A stretch of DNA of 23,042 bases, from the IMG/VR virus record IMGVR_UViG_3300042368_000332, positions 1-23,042 of that record. The stretch is one strand, 5' to 3'. This DNA comes from a virus. The notes below the pieces were generated by a model. The model made no database searches. It saw only the letters and a program-made list of their open reading frames with translations, and was not told where the DNA came from. Every line of letters starts with the position of its first letter. Position 1 is the stretch's first letter. The translations under genes and the position numbers were made by a program. This document shows, in pieces, positions 4,859 through 20,543 of this stretch.

Positions 4859-5911
4859 CTACGCTTCCATCATAGCGAGGTTGGCCTTGATGCGCTCATC
4901 ACTTGGCGCAAATTCCAAGGCTTTTTTGCAATGCTCAAGCGCCTCGCCCTTCATGCCCAAGTGCCATGCCGCGATGCTTAGGTAGTCGTGCGGCTTTTCT
5001 GTCCACACCGCAGGGTCCATTGTGTAGACCGCAGCCTTGTCTTTGATCTCGAGGGCTGTTCGACAGGCCGCATAGCACTCGGGCCAATTGTGCGTTGAGT
5101 AGGCCAACTCAGCCACCCGCACCCAAGGCTCTCGCGTGTAGGGAGCTTCAGCGGTGGCCCTACGCGCCCAGGTCAGGGCTTGCCAATAGTCGCCCTTGGC
5201 CTGATAGGCTTCCGACAGCAGGCGCATCGCGTAGCAGCGTTCGTTCTGCCAGGTCGCCTGGGGCATTTGCAGGTAGTGATTGAGCCGGTCAATCGCCTCA
5301 TCCCAAAGCCGATAGAAGGTCAGTTCCCGAGCAAAGTAAAAAGCGTTGCGAGGCTCATTGGGGTTCTCTTTGACCGACATACGCAGCAGATCAAGATACT
5401 GCCCACGGGACTTGGTTGGGTCGGGGTAGTGACTTACCAAAAGCATATCGGTTTCTGCGTATACCTCATTGATGCGAACATCAGGAATTGGATATTCATG
5501 GACCGGACAGAAGAATGAGTAGCCGTGTCGGGCAAAAATCTTCTCGTACTTGAATCGAATGCCGTGCCCCCAGTCAAAAAGATAGCGCAAGCGAGTGGTT
5601 TTGCCCATCTCCCAAACGCGCTCAATTTCCTCGCGCCATCCGGGTTCTAGTACCTCATCCAAGTCAAGGCTGACGATAATGTCAATGTCTTTGGGCGTGA
5701 GAGCAATCGCCGCATTACGCGCCGCATCGAATCGCCACGGGCTGATGCAGATGTCATGGACCGTTGCGCCGCATTCCTTGGCAAGCTCAACCGTGCGGTC
5801 TGTGCTGCCTGTGTCGGCTATGAGGATCAGATCGGCATCTTTGGCTGAATCGCAAAAACGCTTGACAAACTGCTCTTCATTTTTTGAGATCGCATTCACG
5901 CAAATTTTCAT
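4859..5911 (-). CDS. GT2-family glycosyltransferase with TPR domain
   Basis: 350 residues. The start is ATG 5911 because AGGA lies six to seven bases upstream and the product then opens with the GT-A strand MKICVNAISKNEEQFVKRF; a longer open frame to 5998 would overlap the endolysin gene. GT2 features: IADTGSTDRT (31-40), a DxD-type metal site SLDLDEVLEPGW (D83/D85), and RFDAARNAAI. Residues about 200-345 are helical TPR-like repeats (WDEAIDRLNHYL, YQAKGDYWQALTWARRA, GEALEHCKKALEFAPSDE). Such enzymes add sugars to proteins, envelope components or other acceptors. It is the last late gene, eight bases after the endolysin; decoration of the Ser/Thr-rich fibre proteins or of host surface glycans are both possible. 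Acceptor unknown. Confidence 0.85.
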   Translation of the reverse strand: MKICVNAISKNEEQFVKRFCDSAKDADLILIADTGSTDRTVELAKECGATVHDICISPWRFDAARNAAIALTPKDIDIIVSLDLDEVLEPGWREEIERVWEMGKTTRLRYLFDWGHGIRFKYEKIFARHGYSFFCPVHEYPIPDVRINEVYAETDMLLVSHYPDPTKSRGQYLDLLRMSVKENPNEPRNAFYFARELTFYRLWDEAIDRLNHYLQMPQATWQNERCYAMRLLSEAYQAKGDYWQALTWARRATAEAPYTREPWVRVAELAYSTHNWPECYAACRTALEIKDKAAVYTMDPAVWTEKPHDYLSIAAWHLGMKGEALEHCKKALEFAPSDERIKANLAMMEA

Positions 5912-5919
5912 GTCTTGTC

Positions 5920-6423
5920 CTATGAGAGAAACAAAGCGATTTCCGCTTCCCTCCTTTTTACCAAACCCGGCAGCACTTTGCCACCCCCCATCGTCCATTG
6001 ACGAAAAGCATCTGCTGCGCCTTCCCAGTCGCCTCGGTTGGCACGCATCCGAATCTGACTGCGCTGAAGGTTGCCTAGACCGGCATTGAAGGCAAAAGAG
6101 ACAAGAGCGTCAAAGCTGCCTTGACGCCCAACCACACCGGGAACAAGTCGAAGAACACCACGTTCAAAAGTGCCGACATCATCGCGGAATAGCTCATCGA
6201 TCTCGGTCTTCGTCCATACGCGATTGTCTTCGGGCTTGATGTTGTATTCATTGCGAATCATCCCGGTGTAGCCTTCTTTTCGGACCACCGGCAATCTAAT
6301 CTGTTCTTGGTAGAGAACATGGCCGTAACCCACGGTCCAAATCACCGCCGGGCATAAATATGGCTTGCTGCGGAAACCCTCATACTTGTGCATGAGGTCT
6401 TCGCCTGCCTTGCTCAGTTTCAC
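5920..6423 (-). CDS. GH24 phage lysozyme (endolysin)
   Basis: 167 residues from GTG 6423, which forms a GTGA overlap with the holin stop; a TTG four codons upstream is possible. The T4/P22/P1-type lysozyme catalytic pattern E-8aa-D/C-5aa-T is exact: E15 in YEGF, C24 in PYLCPA, T30 in WTVGYGH. Cys replaces the commoner Asp, an accepted family variant. Later conserved segments are FDALVSFAFNAGLGNLQRS and GLVKRREAEIALFLS. It hydrolyses the MurNAc-GlcNAc bond of peptidoglycan. There is no N-terminal signal or SAR-type membrane segment, so it must leave the cytoplasm through the holin encoded directly upstream. Confidence 0.93.
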   Translation of the reverse strand: MKLSKAGEDLMHKYEGFRSKPYLCPAVIWTVGYGHVLYQEQIRLPVVRKEGYTGMIRNEYNIKPEDNRVWTKTEIDELFRDDVGTFERGVLRLVPGVVGRQGSFDALVSFAFNAGLGNLQRSQIRMRANRGDWEGAADAFRQWTMGGGKVLPGLVKRREAEIALFLS

Positions 6424-7652: not shown

Positions 7653-10600
7653 TCAAGTAGGCCAAAACATAAGAAAGAAGTTCCCGGTCGAAGCCGCTGC
7701 GGGAGCCGCTGAGAATATCCACCCTAACGAACCGTTGTTCGTGGAGTTTGCACCGGCATACCAAGTGTCAGTCAAGGAGTAGGCACGCACGCCCGTGATC
7801 GTCAGGTAGTCCACGTTCACCGTGCCACTGGTCAGGATCAGCGTGCCCGGTGAAGATGCGGAAGTGCCTTGAACCGTCAGCAACCGACCTGCTTCACCCG
7901 CGCCAGTCCACTGGCTTACCCTCTGAGTCGTGGTGCCAAGCGTGATGTTGGCAGCGCCGGTGCTCTTGTAGGTGTTAGTGATGTCTTTGAACGTGTTGTT
8001 GCCAGTGATGGTCAGTGCGCCTGCTCCGCCTTGGTTAAGTGTGATGTTGGTGTAGTCCACTCCGCCACCTGCAAAGGTTTTGGCAGATGCGTTGGTCAAA
8101 CTGATTGTTCCTGTTCCTGTAAATGTCGTAGGAACCGTTGAAGGTGAGTAAGTAAAGCCACCCGAAAGGGTTACAGTGCTAGTGCCAATTGCAAGCGTTC
8201 TTGATAAGGTTGTTTGAGCAAGCACCAGGCTAGAAAGCGTTGCACTAAACCCGTTGGTGTCTAGCGTACCCTGTGTGTGGCTGATGTTATTAGAAGATGT
8301 AAAAGCATCTTGAAGCGTTACTGAACCGCCCGGAGTATTGACTGTAAACGGTTGCGTAAAAGTTACGCCTGCGCTCGTAACCGTCTGACTGCCACGCCCT
8401 GCAAGAGTAACAACGCCCGAACCTGTGAACGTTGTGCCCGTGCCGTTAATCCAGTTGCCGTAGATGGTTGGTGTCTGTGCGCCCGTCGCCAACGTCATCG
8501 TGTTGGTCGTCCGAGCCGACATATCAATCGTGCCGATGTTGTAGGCAGCGTTGATGGTGATGGTGTTCCCGCTAGAAGGAAATGGCGTAGGGCTTGACGG
8601 AAACACCGCAGTATCTTGCGCCAAAGGGAAATTATTGATTGCCGGTGTCCCGCCATTTGTTAAAGACCATCTGGCGTTTCCTGATCCCCACGTATCCCCA
8701 ATAGATTGGCCCCACCACACCGTCTTGGCCACAGGGAACGTAATCCCGCTGTTGCCCTTGCAGTCACCCAACCGAGTACCCGATGCCGGAGCCGCTGCGC
8801 CTGCGATGGTGATGTCGCGGAAGTCGGCGTCTGTAGCAGAGACAGCAGCACAAGTCAGCGTGCGGGTGGTGCCAATCGTGTCTGACCGGACAAAGTGCCG
8901 CATCGTGGCGTTGGTGCCTGCGGATAGCGTCAAAGTGCCGGTGATGGTTTGGTTGGCTGATACGGAAACAACCTTCAGACCGGCAGAGGTTATTCCCGTG
9001 AACGATAGGTTATTAAAACTGTTGGCCCCGTTGATTGTTACAGTGCCTGATGAAGTGTTTGTAAAATTGACATTATAAAAAGAAAGGCCACCTCCGTTAA
9101 ATACGCTGTTTGACGAACAATTTATTTGTGAGGTTCCGGCATTTAGTGTTAAATTTATTGAGTTTGTAAAACCTGTAGGCAAACTTTGAATAGAAATTGT
9201 TGACGACCCTAGAGAGAGTGAGCGTGTATTTGCGTTTGAAGACGCAAATCCTCCAATCGTTACTGCGTAATTGGCTGTATCAAAATCTCCGTTTGTAACT
9301 GTCAGCGATGTGCCTGCGGCCCCATCTGACCAAGCACTTCCAAGCGACCATCCACATCCGACACCATTAACTACCGGATTCCCGGCAACTGTTACCCCGT
9401 TAGTCGTGAAGGTCTTGCCAGTTGTAGACCCCGAAAGAACCAAAAGCCCGGTAAATGTACGGGTCAACCCCGTGGCAGGCAGCGTGATGTTGCCGTGGCA
9501 GATCAGCGTTGAAGTCCCCGCAAGCGTCACGTTACCCGATGCCGGACCTGCGATCGTCAGTTGATTGCATCGGCTTGTGGCGTTGACCGTAGCGGTATAA
9601 GCCGTGGCATTGGATGCAGCATCAAAGATCACATTGTCGAGGCTTGTGGGGACAGATGCTCCACCGCCACCGCCCGATCCAGTAGACCATCTGTTCGTAT
9701 CTGACCAGTTGCCCGTACCACCGACCCAGTAACGGGTTGTGGCCGCCGGGGTTGCAGTTCTGAACACAGGTGCGCTTGCGGTGCCGGTGGAGTTGGCTCC
9801 GGCGTAGAACTCTCCAGGACTTGTAGCCGAAAAGCCAATCGACCCCATCGCAAGGTAGTCGATGCCTGAAGTAGCCGCGCCCGCGAGAACGTGGCTTGTG
9901 CCAGTTCCTGACAGCGTGACGACATTGCCTGCCGTGCCCGTTACCGTCCACTTACCAAAGGTCTGCGTTGTAGAGCCGAGATCAATGGTGTGGGCTACGG
10001 TCTTGGTGGAGGCAAGTTCAGTAAACTGGTTATCGCCTTCAATAATCAGCGTAGATGTTCCTGTTGAGCCACCTATCGTGAGTTTGTTATAGGAAAGTCC
10101 CCCACCCCTAAAAGTCCTATTCGTTGCGCTTGTATTTGATAAAACAATGTTAGCAGTGCCTTTGTAAAGAACAGGGTTAGAACTAAAATTCCACAAATTT
10201 CCAGTGCTAGAAAGCGTCCATGTTCCAGAACCCATTTTTAAGGTGGTGGCAAATGTCGGCACAGCAAACGATCCCGTCGTCACGTTGTACGTCACCGCAT
10301 CAAACGTGCCGCTAGTAAGGGTCAGGGTTCTTGCGGCAATTAGCGTTAGAGCGTCTGCCAGTTGGACTGTGCCCGTTGCGGAATCGATGGTTATGGCCCC
10401 ACTCCATATGTTGCCACCACTGGTAATGGTTTGCGTTCCACGACCCGCGAATGTTGGCGCACCTGTTGTCCCGGGTGTGACGCCACTTCCTAGCAAAACA
10501 TTACCGTGGTAGAAGGGGCCGGAATTTGACCAATCAATCGTGCAGGCAGAAGTTCTGCCTGACATATTTAATGTGCCAATGTTCCATGCTGCGTTGGTCG

Positions 10601-12773
10601 TAATCGTGCCCGCGCTGCCAGTGTTGTCGAACACCGCCGTGTCTTGCGCCAAGGGAAACTGATTGATGTCAGGCGTGCCGCCGGATGACGGTGCCCATGC
10701 TGTAGCACTCCAGTTCTGAGTGCCTGCAAGGTTCCAGTAGACCGTCTTAGGAGACGGGAACGCGATGCCCGTGTTCCCACCGCAGTTGCCTGCACGGGTA
10801 GGCGATGATCCGGCAGCAGCCCCGGCAATCGTGATGTCGCGAAAGTCGCAGTCAGTTGCGCTGAGGCTGTTTACGGTGAGGGTGCGGGTAGTGCCGAGGG
10901 TGTCGGAGCGCAGGAAGATACGGCGAACAGCGGTTGCCCCGGCGCAGGTAAGAGTGCCGTTGATTATAAAATTACCGGATGGGACAAATTGAATTAACCC
11001 TGCGCCAGAAGGTGCGGTTATAGTTAAGTTATTGAAAGTCGTTGTTGCTGTTGTAGCCATTCCAATATTTTTTGCCCCTACGCCAGTAAATGTGACGTTG
11101 TAATATGTCAGCCCGCCAAAACTAAAACTAAGATTAATGTTTTCTGCCGTAATATTTATTTGTGAAGTACCGGCATTAAAAGTCAGATTGGTGGACACGT
11201 TCATTGAAGGGCCGCCAGTGCCACTCAACGTCAACGTACTCGAACCAAGCGTAATTGTTCTGACGTTACTGTTGCTAGAAGACAAAGACCCGGCAGTGAC
11301 GTTGTAGTTCTTGGTGTCAAACGTGCCGTTGGTGACGGTAAGCGTGCGTGACCCAATGTTCAACGCATCAGCAAGTTCTAAAACGCCGCCATAAGAGTCT
11401 AAGGTTATATCGCCAAGTGTTTTCCCCGCAGAAGTAATGATTTGCGTATTTCTACCGCTAAGAGTCATTGTTCCAAGGTTAGCGTTATAAGTAACGCCGG
11501 AACCAAGGGTTAAATTTCCATAAAATGTTGGATTGACGCTTGCAGAAAATGTCATAGCGTTAGTGCGCGTAGACATATTCAAAGAACCAATATACGTTAT
11601 AGGCGAGTCCAACGTAACCGTAGCAGATGTGTTCAGGCCCGTGTTCTCAATAACCGCCGTATCTTGAGCGAGAGGGAAGTTATCTGTGCTGACAGCACCA
11701 CCCGAAGATGCTGCCCATGCGTTTGCTGACCAGTTGCCACCTGCGGCAAGGTTCCAATACACCGTCTTGGGCGTGGATGCTGTGATGCCGCGAATACCGC
11801 GCAAGTCTCCAATCCGAGTGCCCGAGATGGGCGCAGCAGTGCCGATGACGTAGATGTCGCGGAAGTCTGCGTCGGTCAGACTTGGGGCGCTGTTGATCGT
11901 GAGGGTTTGAGCAAGGCCGTAGGTTGCTCCACGGAACCACACGCGCCGATTGCCTGCTGTGCCGGTAGTGGACAGCGTGCCGTTGATGGTTTGGCGGGAA
12001 TTGAAAGTGACTTCAGTTACACCGGCAGTAGAGCGGGCAGTAATGGTTAAGTTATTAAATGTGTTAATTGCAACTATTGAGTTTGTTCCCGAAGTTGTAC
12101 TTGTAAATGCAACATTGTAAAAAGTTAGACCCGTTCCACTTGCAGCGCCGCCTGTAATGCTAGTATCAGACGCCGTAAGATTAATCTGTGATGTTCCGGC
12201 GTTAAATGTTAAATTAGTGTTTGTCCCTGCAACAATTCCATTTGCATTAGTTAAAGTAATTGTACTACTTCCAAAATTTATTGTTCTTGTATTGCTGTTG
12301 CCAGAAGATAGTGCTTGTGCAGTTACTGCATAGTTGTTTGTAGTAAAAGTACCTTGCGTAACAGTCAAAAAACCTGAAGATGTCAGCGCATCACCAAGAG
12401 TGGTGGTAATGCCTGAGCCGCTAATTGTTATTGGCCCAATTGTTTTCCCGGCGGTCGTGAGCGTACCCGTCGCATTAAATGTTATTGTCCCGCTATAAGT
12501 AACCGTCATCCCGGCCACAAGCGTGACGCTACCCGATACGGTGATGGCCGCGCTACCGGCAATAGTTCCCGTAAACCCGGTGCAGTTGATGGACTTCGCA
12601 CCTGTATTCCCGGTAGAAATGGTGCAAGTGCCAGTGGACAGATTTGTGAAGAACACATCGTCAGCACTGGTGGGAACAGACGCACCTCCGGCTCCCCCGG
12701 ATGTGGTGGCCCACTTAGTCCCTGCGGTGCCGTCCCAACTCGCAGTCCCGCCAACCCAAAATCTGTCAGGCAC
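7653..12773 (-). CDS. Giant repetitive beta-rich tail adhesin/fibre protein
   Basis: 1706 residues from GTG 12773, with an AGGAG site six bases upstream. Composition is overwhelmingly Thr, Ser, Gly, Asn, Ala with alternating hydrophobics, as in beta-helix or beta-sandwich adhesins. No signal peptide, membrane segment or catalytic motif. It is five tandem modules of about 335 residues, each opening with an aromatic header (FWVGGTASW at 5; YWNLAAGGNW at 339; YWNLAGTQNW at 679; YWVGGTGNW at 1015; WWGQSIGDTW at 1353) followed by a PTSxDxVxF or FPLAQDTAV segment. Recurrent blocks are NLTFNAGTSQIN, YYNVxFT, TFNNLTITA, DADFRDI and SGTRxGD. Modules 3 and 5 end in a different tail with WYAGANST-type sequence. 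The C-terminus is FFLMFWPT. It lies between fibre and lysis genes, so it is most likely a virion host-contact protein; attachment point and receptor unknown. Confidence 0.8.
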   Translation of the reverse strand: MPDRFWVGGTASWDGTAGTKWATTSGGAGGASVPTSADDVFFTNLSTGTCTISTGNTGAKSINCTGFTGTIAGSAAITVSGSVTLVAGMTVTYSGTITFNATGTLTTAGKTIGPITISGSGITTTLGDALTSSGFLTVTQGTFTTNNYAVTAQALSSGNSNTRTINFGSSTITLTNANGIVAGTNTNLTFNAGTSQINLTASDTSITGGAASGTGLTFYNVAFTSTTSGTNSIVAINTFNNLTITARSTAGVTEVTFNSRQTINGTLSTTGTAGNRRVWFRGATYGLAQTLTINSAPSLTDADFRDIYVIGTAAPISGTRIGDLRGIRGITASTPKTVYWNLAAGGNWSANAWAASSGGAVSTDNFPLAQDTAVIENTGLNTSATVTLDSPITYIGSLNMSTRTNAMTFSASVNPTFYGNLTLGSGVTYNANLGTMTLSGRNTQIITSAGKTLGDITLDSYGGVLELADALNIGSRTLTVTNGTFDTKNYNVTAGSLSSSNSNVRTITLGSSTLTLSGTGGPSMNVSTNLTFNAGTSQINITAENINLSFSFGGLTYYNVTFTGVGAKNIGMATTATTTFNNLTITAPSGAGLIQFVPSGNFIINGTLTCAGATAVRRIFLRSDTLGTTRTLTVNSLSATDCDFRDITIAGAAAGSSPTRAGNCGGNTGIAFPSPKTVYWNLAGTQNWSATAWAPSSGGTPDINQFPLAQDTAVFDNTGSAGTITTNAAWNIGTLNMSGRTSACTIDWSNSGPFYHGNVLLGSGVTPGTTGAPTFAGRGTQTITSGGNIWSGAITIDSATGTVQLADALTLIAARTLTLTSGTFDAVTYNVTTGSFAVPTFATTLKMGSGTWTLSSTGNLWNFSSNPVLYKGTANIVLSNTSATNRTFRGGGLSYNKLTIGGSTGTSTLIIEGDNQFTELASTKTVAHTIDLGSTTQTFGKWTVTGTAGNVVTLSGTGTSHVLAGAATSGIDYLAMGSIGFSATSPGEFYAGANSTGTASAPVFRTATPAATTRYWVGGTGNWSDTNRWSTGSGGGGGASVPTSLDNVIFDAASNATAYTATVNATSRCNQLTIAGPASGNVTLAGTSTLICHGNITLPATGLTRTFTGLLVLSGSTTGKTFTTNGVTVAGNPVVNGVGCGWSLGSAWSDGAAGTSLTVTNGDFDTANYAVTIGGFASSNANTRSLSLGSSTISIQSLPTGFTNSINLTLNAGTSQINCSSNSVFNGGGLSFYNVNFTNTSSGTVTINGANSFNNLSFTGITSAGLKVVSVSANQTITGTLTLSAGTNATMRHFVRSDTIGTTRTLTCAAVSATDADFRDITIAGAAAPASGTRLGDCKGNSGITFPVAKTVWWGQSIGDTWGSGNARWSLTNGGTPAINNFPLAQDTAVFPSSPTPFPSSGNTITINAAYNIGTIDMSARTTNTMTLATGAQTPTIYGNWINGTGTTFTGSGVVTLAGRGSQTVTSAGVTFTQPFTVNTPGGSVTLQDAFTSSNNISHTQGTLDTNGFSATLSSLVLAQTTLSRTLAIGTSTVTLSGGFTYSPSTVPTTFTGTGTISLTNASAKTFAGGGVDYTNITLNQGGAGALTITGNNTFKDITNTYKSTGAANITLGTTTQRVSQWTGAGEAGRLLTVQGTSASSPGTLILTSGTVNVDYLTITGVRAYSLTDTWYAGANSTNNGSLGWIFSAAPAAASTGNFFLMFWPT
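7656..12761 (-). repeat. Five tandem ~1-kb coding repeats in the giant adhesin
   Basis: Modules (read right to left): 1, 12761-11760; 2, 11759-10740; 3, 10739-9732; 4, 9731-8718; 5, 8717-7656. Header spacing is 334, 340, 336 and 338 residues. Headers fall into two types: WVGGT...ASVPTS (modules 1 and 4) and YWN/WWG...FPLAQDTAV (2, 3, 5). Endings also fall into two types: DADFRDI...SGTRxGD (1, 2, 4) and IDYL...YAGANST (3, 5). The array is thus two super-units, 1-2-3 and 4-5. Confidence 0.85.
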
Positions 12774-12776
12774 GAT

Positions 12777-12956
12777 TTACTCCTGTGCGGGTGCTTCTTC
12801 TGCGGGAGGCGCGGTAACAACGGCGATCCAGTTGTTCACGCGCTCTGCCTTCATTGCCTCAATCTGCTCAGGAGTGAAGGTGTGGTCATCGGGCAGATGC
12901 AGGGCATCAGCGAACTTGCCGTGAGGCGTCTGAAACTCAAAGTCGATCTTGATCAT
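12777..12956 (-). CDS. Small phage protein (59 aa) between fibre genes
   Basis: A 59-residue frame from ATG 12956 to TAA 12777-12779, in the 192-base gap between the collagen-like fibre and the giant adhesin. An AAGGA site lies about six bases before the ATG, and its last codons carry the ribosome site of the adhesin gene. The product begins MIKIDFEFQTPHGKFADALH, continues LPDDHTFTPEQIEAMKAER and ends in an acidic Ala/Pro tail (PPAEEAPAQE). I recall short proteins with this TPHGxFxDALHLPDDHT pattern next to tail-fibre genes in phages; the job is unknown, perhaps a fibre-associated or assembly factor. Confidence 0.75.
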   Translation of the reverse strand: MIKIDFEFQTPHGKFADALHLPDDHTFTPEQIEAMKAERVNNWIAVVTAPPAEEAPAQE

Positions 12957-12965
12957 GTCTTTTCC

Positions 12966-15104
12966 TTAAGCTTGAGTTGTGACAGCAACTACATCCCAAC
13001 GGGTGTTGTTGGTGTTGTAGATGCACCCGACGTAAGTGGTTTTGTTGATCGTTGTGGCCGTGGGTAGCGTTACACCGATGGCGGTGTAGGTGCCGTTCCA
13101 GTTCAGCGTTTGAGATGTGCCGTTATCAAGGATGCGGAACACCAAGCGATTGCCGTTTACCGGCGTGCCAATTGGCGCGTTGATCGCCAAGGTTGCGGCA
13201 AGCGCAGTGAAAGCATAAACGTCAAACGATGCCACATCAGGCGTGACAGACGATGCCGAAGCTGCGCTCGACACCCTCGGGTCAATCCGCTTGTTGGTCA
13301 GCGTCTGAGCGTCTGTGGTTCCGACAATCGCGCCACTCGGGGCCGTGAGCGATGTGCCCCATGCGGAGCCGGTCGATACCGCGATTCCTGCGCCGGGGTA
13401 AACAGTCGGACCTTGAGCGCCAGTAGGGCCGGTGGGTCCAAGATCACCTGGCACGCCTTGAATGCCTTGCGGTCCTTGCGGTCCGGTAGGCCCGGTATCA
13501 CCGATGGTTCCTTGCGGCCCGGTTGGTCCGGCTGCGCCAGTATTTCCTTGTGCGCCCGTGGGGCCGGTTGGGCCTTGAATGCCCTGCTCACCCTGGATGC
13601 CCTGCACGCCTTGCGGCCCGGTTGGGCCAATGTCACCTTGCGGTCCAGTAGGGCCAACAGAACCCGTGGGGCCGGGAACAGTAGAAGCTGCGCCGGTAGG
13701 CCCAGTCGGTCCTTGAATGCCTTGACTGCCTTGCGGTCCCGTGGGGCCTGTTGCGCCAATATCGCCGGGAGTGCCCTGAATACCTTGCGGTCCTTGCGGT
13801 CCAGTCGGGCCAACAAAACCTTGAGGGCCGGTCGGTCCTGCTGATCCCGTGGGACCATTCTGCGTGTAGGTGACTTGGGTGGCCGTGAAGATAACGCCGG
13901 GGATGACCGGCGAAACCGGCGAGGTGCCTGCGGGTACGGTTTGGATCGATATTTGGGTATCCGTTACCGCCCAAATCATTTCGATGTAATCTGCCGCCGC
14001 CAACTTCAATACAAAGTTGACGGTCATCAGACCATATCCGTCCACGCCGCCGTGACGCTGCTGAATACTCAGCCTGCTGTCGGAGTCAGGAACATCGCCC
14101 GAGCTTCCCGCATTGTTCTTCCGCAGCCACACGTTGACATCGTGAATCTGCGTGTCGGTGTTGACGAACTGAATCGAGAACGTCAGGCTATAAGTGCCCG
14201 CCTGCGAGAACGTGACTCGGCTGTTTGAGACAACGCTAATCCCGTTTGAGTCGGGGTCGGTGTTGTTGAGCGTGACCGAATAAGCTGTATTTGCAGCCGC
14301 AGCAGTTTGATCTTGGGTAGACCAAAACGATCCCCAATAAGCAACCGTGCCGCCTGCGCCGGGATTGCCTTGCGGTCCGGTCGGGCCGGTAGAGCCTTGT
14401 GGTCCCGTAGGGCCGACAAAGCCTTGATCGCCCTGCACGCCCTGCGGTCCCGTTGGGCCGTGGTCGCCTTGGATTCCTTGAGGGCCGGTGGGACCAGTAG
14501 GACCGGGAACGGTTGATTGCGCTCCAGTAGCTCCGGTTGGCCCGGTGGGGCCGATATTACCCTGTGGGCCGGTCGGCCCGGTGTTGCCCTGGATGCCCTG
14601 TTCGCCTTGGATGCCTTGAACGCCTTGTGGTCCCGTGGGTCCAATGTCGCCCTGTGCGCCCTGTGCCCCGGTGGGTCCGGTTGCGCCAACAGCGCCCTGC
14701 GGCCCGGTCGGGCCGACAGCTCCGGTCGGGCCGACATTGCCCTGCGGTCCTTGAACACCTTGCGGCCCGGTGGGGCCGTGGTCGCCCTGACTGCCTTGCG
14801 CCCCAGTCGGACCAGTTGGGCCTGCTATGGTTGACGCAGCACCAGTAGGCCCGGTAGGTCCAGTATTGCCTTGCGCCCCAGTTGGCCCAGTTGGCCCTGT
14901 AATGCCTTGCGAACCCGTAGGACCAGTTGCGCCGGTAGGCCCGGTTGCGCCCTGTGGCCCAGTCGGTCCTGCTGCACCTTGAGGGCCGGTCGGCCCGGTA
15001 GCTCCTGCAACGCTGCGGTCTAGCCTGACGTTAATGTCGGGAGTTGGCGTGACTTGAAGGTTGACGTTGTTGCCATCTTGGACAACTACCTTGATGTTGC
15101 TCAT
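12966..15104 (-). CDS. Collagen-like tail fibre protein
   Basis: 712 residues, ATGA-coupled to the upstream gene. Domain order: N-terminal 33 residues ([20 protein letters not shown], likely attachment); collagen Gly-X-Y arm 34-252 made mainly of [10 protein letters not shown] and GIQGEQG units; a globular domain 253-416 starting [16 protein letters not shown] with a beta-sandwich pattern ([20 protein letters not shown], then VWLRKNN), reminiscent of C1q/TNF-like knobs; a second collagen arm 417-566; and a C-terminal domain 567-712 with the phage-fibre motif [20 protein letters not shown] and a terminal beta domain ([10 protein letters not shown]). Expected to trimerise as a thin fibre with a knob in the middle and one at the tip. 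The Gly-X-Y repeat is broken at three places by STVP/STIA inserts. Confidence 0.88.
13407..13856 (-). repeat. Collagen-like Gly-X-Y coding repeat, distal arm
   Basis: About 50 Gly-X-Y triplets (fibre residues 417-566), mostly GPTGPQG, GIQG and GPTGPTG. One break, AASTVPG, lies near residues 472-478. At DNA level the strand is a low-complexity series of 9-base units such as ggtccggtt and ggtccttgc variants. Confidence 0.85.
14349..15005 (-). repeat. Collagen-like Gly-X-Y coding repeat, proximal arm
   Basis: About 73 Gly-X-Y triplets (fibre residues 34-252), richer in GATGPTG and GVQGIQG units, with breaks AASTIAG near 89-95 and AQSTVPG near 195-201. Synonymous codons vary from unit to unit, so exact DNA repeats are short, which would limit slippage. 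Confidence 0.85.
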
Positions 15105-20096: not shown

Positions 20097-20543
20097 TTAT
20101 TCCTTGCAGTACGTCGAGTCGATCTTCTTAAAGCCTCGGCTTTCTAGATCAATCTTAGGACTTTGTGGCATCAGCGAAATGATGACAACCTCTGCCCGTT
20201 CCTGATCAATCAATTCTTGTGCTTTCTTGTTGTAGGCCAAAAACAATTTGCCGCCAATCGTTGTGTTCCTATGCTCAGGCGCGACCCACCAAGCTAGTTC
20301 CCTGACTTCGTTAACCTCGGGGCACCACACATTCGGCACCACGATCCCCGCCGCCATCCCGCGATATTCGTTGTCCACCAAGACAAAGCCGCGACCAATG
20401 ATGAGTGAGGAAAGCAGGCTGCGTATGTGTTGCTCGTCGTGTAGTCTCTTGTCTCTCAGTTTAATGATCGGGGACTCTGCCGCATATTGCCGCATCATCT
20501 CGACGCAGGAATCTATGTCGAACTTGTTTGCTTCCCTGATCAT
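20097..20543 (-). CDS. GNAT-family acetyltransferase in the tail operon
   Basis: 148 residues, ATGA-coupled to the upstream tail gene. GNAT layout: MIREANKFDIDSCVEMMRQY (strand and helix 1), GRGFVLVDNEYRGMAAGIVV (strands 2-4), EVRELAWWVAPEHRNTTIGG (about 78-97), the acetyl-CoA loop region where RxxGxGG is replaced by RNTTIGGKLF, then EVVIISLMPQ and RGFKKIDSTY. It transfers an acetyl group from acetyl-CoA to an amine; the acceptor cannot be told. A gene of this type between tail-tip genes, where lambda has tail-assembly genes K and I, suggests modification of a tail or host protein. It could equally be a cargo gene. Confidence 0.82.
   Translation of the reverse strand: MIREANKFDIDSCVEMMRQYAAESPIIKLRDKRLHDEQHIRSLLSSLIIGRGFVLVDNEYRGMAAGIVVPNVWCPEVNEVRELAWWVAPEHRNTTIGGKLFLAYNKKAQELIDQERAEVVIISLMPQSPKIDLESRGFKKIDSTYCKE

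Follow-up and report, generated by a model that had tools for sequence, protein, structure and literature searches.

In T2-type phages (T2, PP01 and S16), a separate tip adhesin, gp38, sits at the end of the gp37 fibre, to which it is joined through its own N-terminus (PMC12892980). In freshwater phages, host recognition proteins are largely without annotation. Limnohabitans phage DC31 is a cultured, long-tailed phage whose genome carries an adhesin of the kind described here, although the study of Limnohabitans phages, in discussing host range, describes DC31 and DC33 as having tail proteins that are not identified (PMC12195039). The gp37/gp38 papers and the DC31 paper form the close background in the literature; otherwise we found nothing on point.

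We analysed a viral DNA stretch of 23,042 nt (IMG/VR record IMGVR_UViG_3300042368_000332), hereafter the window. It is a fragment of a tailed freshwater phage that encodes a tape measure, a distal tail protein, a hub/S74 protein, a collagen-like fibre, a small gene with the start MIKIDF, a large adhesin, small lysis-region genes and a lysozyme. From gene position and anatomy we infer that this adhesin is located in the virion as a tail fibre, and we consider it probable that it combines a fixed five-module stalk with an exchangeable C-terminal tip. Within a collection of phage records the protein had one match, in phage DC31 (PQ492658), which is a five-module homologue of approximately 51% identity. 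The DC31 gene spans the ends of the deposited record (PQ492658.1; L082 19998-24119 and L265 8984-10210) and is not annotated as a whole; the only ORFs entered for one part are small, antisense and hypothetical, and the other part is entered as hypothetical protein XLZ15478.1.

Five modules in one gene between tail and lysis genes

The adhesin gene lies between the tail and collagen-fibre genes on one side and the lysis genes on the other. An AGGAG is found directly 5' of its GTG start, and an in-frame TAA stop precedes the start. The features discussed below are as follows, with V and N denoting the two header types and A and B the two ending types.

12966..15104, minus strand: collagen-like tail fibre protein, 712 aa, next to the small gene and upstream of the adhesin
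12777..12956, minus strand: small companion gene, 59 aa, MIKIDFEFQTPHGKFADALHLPDD..., with homologues immediately before the adhesin gene in many relatives
7653..12773, minus strand: five-module adhesin, 1706 aa, a single frame with a GTG start
11766..12773, minus strand: module 1, V header and A ending, residues 1-336
10746..11765, minus strand: module 2, N header and A ending, residues 337-676
9738..10745, minus strand: module 3, N header and B ending, residues 677-1012
8724..9737, minus strand: module 4, V header and A ending, residues 1013-1350, opening the second V...B unit
7779..8723, minus strand: module 5 up to TGVRAY, N header, residues 1351-1665
7713..7778, minus strand: last B ending, its seam and cap, SLTDTWYAGANSTNNGSLGWIF, residues 1666-1687
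7653..7712, minus strand: the window's own tip, a short hydrophobic C-terminus ending in GNFFLMFWPT, stop codon included

An earlier note on this DNA had described five modules of about 335 residues in two super-units and had called for a self-alignment. When this was run, the strongest lags were 340, 674, 342, 1014 and 679 residues, and all ten module pairs aligned end to end over approximately 310-330 positions with 30-48% identity (z = 8-40 relative to shuffled sequences), which bears out the modules. The headers are found at residues 3, 335, 675, 1013 and 1349, the A endings at 286, 626 and 1300, and the B endings at 961 and 1644. Modules are about 340 aa long and follow the order V-A, N-A, N-B, V-A, N-B, as the note had read it from two types of header and two of ending. 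The module bodies likewise fall into two classes that track the ending, namely modules 1, 2 and 4 (A) and modules 3 and 5 (B). As in other proteins with the YWVGGT header, a V header (YWVGG..W...PTSxD) stands at the protein start (residues 3-45), a B cap (WYAG..NST....GW, residues 1671-1687) precedes the tip, internal junctions are of the types A|N or B|V only, and the gene lies among tail-fibre genes.

Some of the surroundings recur with the adhesin. Of 82 related loci, 21 had the small gene, with the consensus MIKIDFxFxTPHGKFADALHLPDD, and 25 had the collagen-like protein's C-terminal domain; where inspected, the former lay directly before the adhesin and the latter upstream of it. Both recur near relatives of the adhesin in otherwise different phages, and the small gene may be coupled to the adhesin. 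The window further encodes a glycosyltransferase (phrog_13126), close to the lysis genes, and an acetyltransferase (phrog_1249), flanked by tail genes, at 4859-5998 and 20097-20543 respectively.

Searches of the adhesin against Pfam, PHROGs and NCBIfam gave no accepted family, and phmmer gave no match among PDB sequences. Structure prediction with AlphaFold2 was run on two-module segments with alignments derived from the loci. Both models consisted almost entirely of strands (modules 3+4, pLDDT 85.2 and pTM 0.80; modules 4+5, pLDDT 81.6 and pTM 0.74). The internal B ending of module 3 was confidently placed in the former model, while the C-terminal WYAG cap and tip of module 5 had a pLDDT below 50 in the latter. 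Foldseek matched the BFVD entry A0A6J5T8W4, named 'Parallel beta-helix repeat' (E 5e-50, TM 0.83, 51% identity), and against the PDB returned no match at E <= 1e-3, only insignificant beta-helix matches. The strand pattern and the match to A0A6J5T8W4 lead to an all-beta solenoid as the predicted fold.

Module order in close relatives and in the wider family

Eighty IMG/VR loci were fetched with the window protein, a set that favours full-length relatives. All 53 complete proteins, the window's included, had five modules in the same order with the endings A-A-B-A-B. For some fifth headers the HMM call was V; the listed ones read FPLAQD, and the P-motif was used for counting junctions. When 230 modules of 46 proteins were placed in a tree, each of the positions 1 to 5 formed its own clade, and in the full-module tree modules 1 and 4 were sisters, as were modules 3 and 5. 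Position-specific clades together with a fixed order imply that the number and order of modules have not changed since these proteins shared an ancestor, and the sequences thus give no sign of copy-number turnover since then.

Because this sample favours full-length relatives, we sampled the family a second time, using a DNA pattern for the V header at a start codon, which yielded 118 viral stretches. Among 63 distinct complete proteins, 17 had one header, 37 had two, one had three and eight had five; none had four or six modules. The second header of two-module proteins was mostly N after an A ending, and V after B in three cases. Within the five-module set we counted 161 A-to-N and 51 B-to-V junctions and no A-to-V or B-to-N junction, with four junctions that the regular expressions left open fitting the rule by eye. 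Thus, the two header and two ending types proposed in the earlier note hold, but they do not combine freely.

A modules (1, 2 and 4) clustered with those that come first in two-module adhesins (74 of 77, with no outsiders), and B modules (3 and 5) with those that come second there and with single-module proteins. Because an A ending invariably leads into an N header, and a B ending either into a V header or to the end of the chain, V...B corresponds to a complete adhesin. Proteins that consist of V...B with one or two modules are common. On the basis of these sequence patterns, the window protein is therefore best interpreted as a three-module and a two-module V...B adhesin fused in tandem. 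The occurrence of V...B units as stand-alone proteins also lends support to the two super-units of the earlier note. The second unit lacks the N-A module, as that note says, through either loss there or gain in the first unit: AU tests rejected neither alternative grouping of modules 1, 2 and 4, the third grouping (that of the best tree) being weakly supported.

Several further observations concern the ends and genomic context of family members. A hydrophobic C-terminal motif (GNFFLMF, NFLMFF) recurs in one-, two- and five-module adhesins (window 7653-7712, L153, L163, L167, L227 and L261). Five one-module adhesins (L173, L200, L214, L224 and L236) have LRSFTQPRRF or a similar sequence at the C-terminus, and in each case a conserved gene of 100-101 aa (MxMNxKAVTTCxGYQQIT) comes next. 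A scan of genome contigs returned one relative, on a contig with phage genes that is filed under a Verrucomicrobia MAG. A Verrucomicrobia-binned contig with phage genes (L083, 7041-15064) carries both a one-module adhesin with a repeat tip and a five-module adhesin.

Stalk alleles, the seam and split genes

The module bodies themselves vary between sister phages. One relative (L006) matched the window at about 92-100% identity across most of 15-20 kb, dropped to 63-90% in the module bodies of the adhesin and was back near 91% in the tip region (7.5-8.0 kb). Another (L078) had the same pattern of allele replacement from the other side. At the sequence level, this pattern is in-register exchange of stalk alleles, and for this reason we do not claim that the tip is the sole variable part. 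Conservation also fell in the middle of the body in each module; tips were replaced completely while module bodies remained alignable.

Many relatives terminate at or shortly past the TGVRAY of module 5, and beyond this point the proteins diverge into a short hydrophobic tail, long repeat tails or FYGS repeats. In many relatives RAY or RAYPL forms the end of the ORF, and a -1-frame ORF follows that starts with M(T/SN)WYAGxNSTNNGS(L/F)GW. This is the motif that closes the fused proteins, and its counterpart in the window (7713..7778) thus corresponds to the start of the separate tip gene of split relatives; the window adhesin itself is fused, with no tip gene downstream. A pattern scan for ATG...WYAGxNSTNNG starts found 68 contigs, in each of which the start overlapped the stop codon of an adhesin (ATGA, TAATG or TGATG); the 23 distinct genes upstream of tip ORFs that were complete all encoded five modules. 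A two-module adhesin (L203) was split at the same ATGA, while six others (L172, L175, L185, L234, L240 and L248) were split some 20-25 residues earlier and had a tip gene in which the cap occurs once or twice; in the tip genes of L172 and L240 the motif occurs twice in succession. Fission and fusion are thus recurrent at one seam, with a second seam used by two-module relatives.

On the stalk tree (60 rows), which is approximate as recombination within stalks affects any single tree, tip classes changed 22 times. In two pairs with similar stalks (L021/L058 and L003/L007) the DNA was mostly unrelated from 75 nt past the seam; before it, the L021/L058 stalks were 83-99% identical, with a single exception among the 300-nt blocks sampled. 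Of 34 split genes, 30 had AGG or AGA as the Arg codon of TGVRAY, located about 8-14 nt from the tip start, versus 6 of 38 fused genes (Fisher p = 6e-10), and AGR made up 72 of 353 codons at a control Arg (DFRD). Because the sequences are related, we also used an independent-pairs test, for which the tree omitted the 30 residues before the seam; five to seven pairs pointed in the same direction and none in the opposite one (median p 0.03), and the split or fused state changed 12 times on this tree. This SD-like codon pattern supports separate initiation of the tip ORF, probably by translational coupling, even though a cassette moving together with the SD-like codon would produce the same pattern. 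Programmed frameshifting at the seam was considered and set aside in favour of reinitiation.

We propose the following model. The stalk, whose module number is held constant at five, would be a beta-solenoid that arose when two V...B adhesins (three and two modules) were joined end to end. Diversity would arise in two ways: whole or partial alleles would be swapped in register between related phages, and the C-terminal tip would be replaced at one constant position, the seam within the last B ending. This tip is either fused, as the short hydrophobic one of the window or the long repeat tails of others, or supplied by a downstream gene that is probably translationally coupled. With its N-terminus repeating the cap motif of the B ending, a separate tip would dock non-covalently through this cap. 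The tip, the module bodies or both would bind the receptor. A more specific version, which we regard as possible though somewhat short of even chances, is that of a split beta-solenoid in which the stalk lacks its final cap and the separate tip supplies it in trans, such that tips with a common cap could be plugged onto different stalks. This arrangement suggests a plug-in tip for host cell recognition and offers a directly testable model of tip docking. The recurrent seam, together with the translation signal that marks split versions, would also aid in finding adhesins and tips in metagenomes by sequence.

Alternative explanations and comparison with known systems

The earlier note had suggested that module copy number shifts by unequal recombination as a way to tune reach or receptor. 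The modules are homologous, and with one, two, three and five modules in the wider family the copy number must have changed at some time. As a current process we deem this very unlikely, given no copy-number variant among the 53 complete close proteins and position-specific clades without mixing in the 46 relatives analysed; the predicted range of two to six modules in relatives did not materialise, as the close family always has five. A less remote alternative, even though we still find it unlikely, is that the module bodies bind the receptor or a surface polysaccharide, with the tip serving mainly as an assembly or capping element. It draws on the sister phages L006 and L078, which retain the flanking genes and differ in stalk alleles, and on the mid-body dip in conservation. 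The L006 pattern would also fit a stalk that binds the receptor along its length, the tip being incidental, but complete tip turnover while the bodies still align speaks against this reading. The predicted all-beta solenoid could also belong to an enzymatic tailspike, a polysaccharide lyase or hydrolase on a beta-helix, and the insignificant Foldseek matches do include PL6 alginate lyases and the HK620 tailspike. However, neither the PDB search at E <= 1e-3 nor the Pfam, PHROG and NCBIfam searches returned a glycan-degrading enzyme family, and we consider an enzyme highly improbable.

Two further alternatives concern the split genes. The downstream ORF might encode a folding chaperone that stays outside the fibre, like T4 gp38, which acts on gp37 and is released after assembly (PMC12892980). 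This is improbable in our view, as the ORF starts with the cap that closes the fused proteins, and the remainder is a repeat array of the kind seen as fused C-termini in other members. Alternatively, the splits could be sequencing errors or programmed frameshifts, in keeping with the -1 frame of the tip relative to the adhesin. Several distinct overlap sequences across the 68 contigs, the enrichment of the SD-like codon with its phylogeny-aware support, the lack of an obvious slippery run and the second split position in two-module relatives make this the least credible of the alternatives.

We thus return to the five-module stalk with an exchangeable tip. Autotransporter passenger domains and phage beta-helix tailspikes resemble the adhesin in its predicted extended beta-solenoid, yet with Foldseek values of E > 0.05 and TM of about 0.2 or less, no relation to them is demonstrated. 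Much closer are the one- and two-module YWVGGT...PTSxD phage adhesins (such as BFVD A0A6J5T8W4), with which it shares headers, A and B endings, the junction rule, tip types and the fold match; the window protein stands apart in that its branch has a fixed number of five modules and a B|V junction inside the protein. The adhesin of Limnohabitans phage DC31 is a five-module homologue like that of the window and differs in its tip, a SIYYGS repeat.

As for the T2-type pair, we found no sequence family in common with gp37/gp38 (the window adhesin and the one tip searched, that of L018, had no PHROG match). In the window no separate tip gene directly follows the fibre gene, while many relatives have one. 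As these searches showed no homology and the window protein has its tip fused, we keep the adhesin outside the T2-type pair, to whose way of working its own would be analogous. The feature in common is a fibre whose receptor-binding tip is a separate end protein, the tip function here being assigned by analogy; the adhesin described here differs in its predicted beta-solenoid stalk and in a tip that copies the stalk's own last cap and alternates between fused and split forms.
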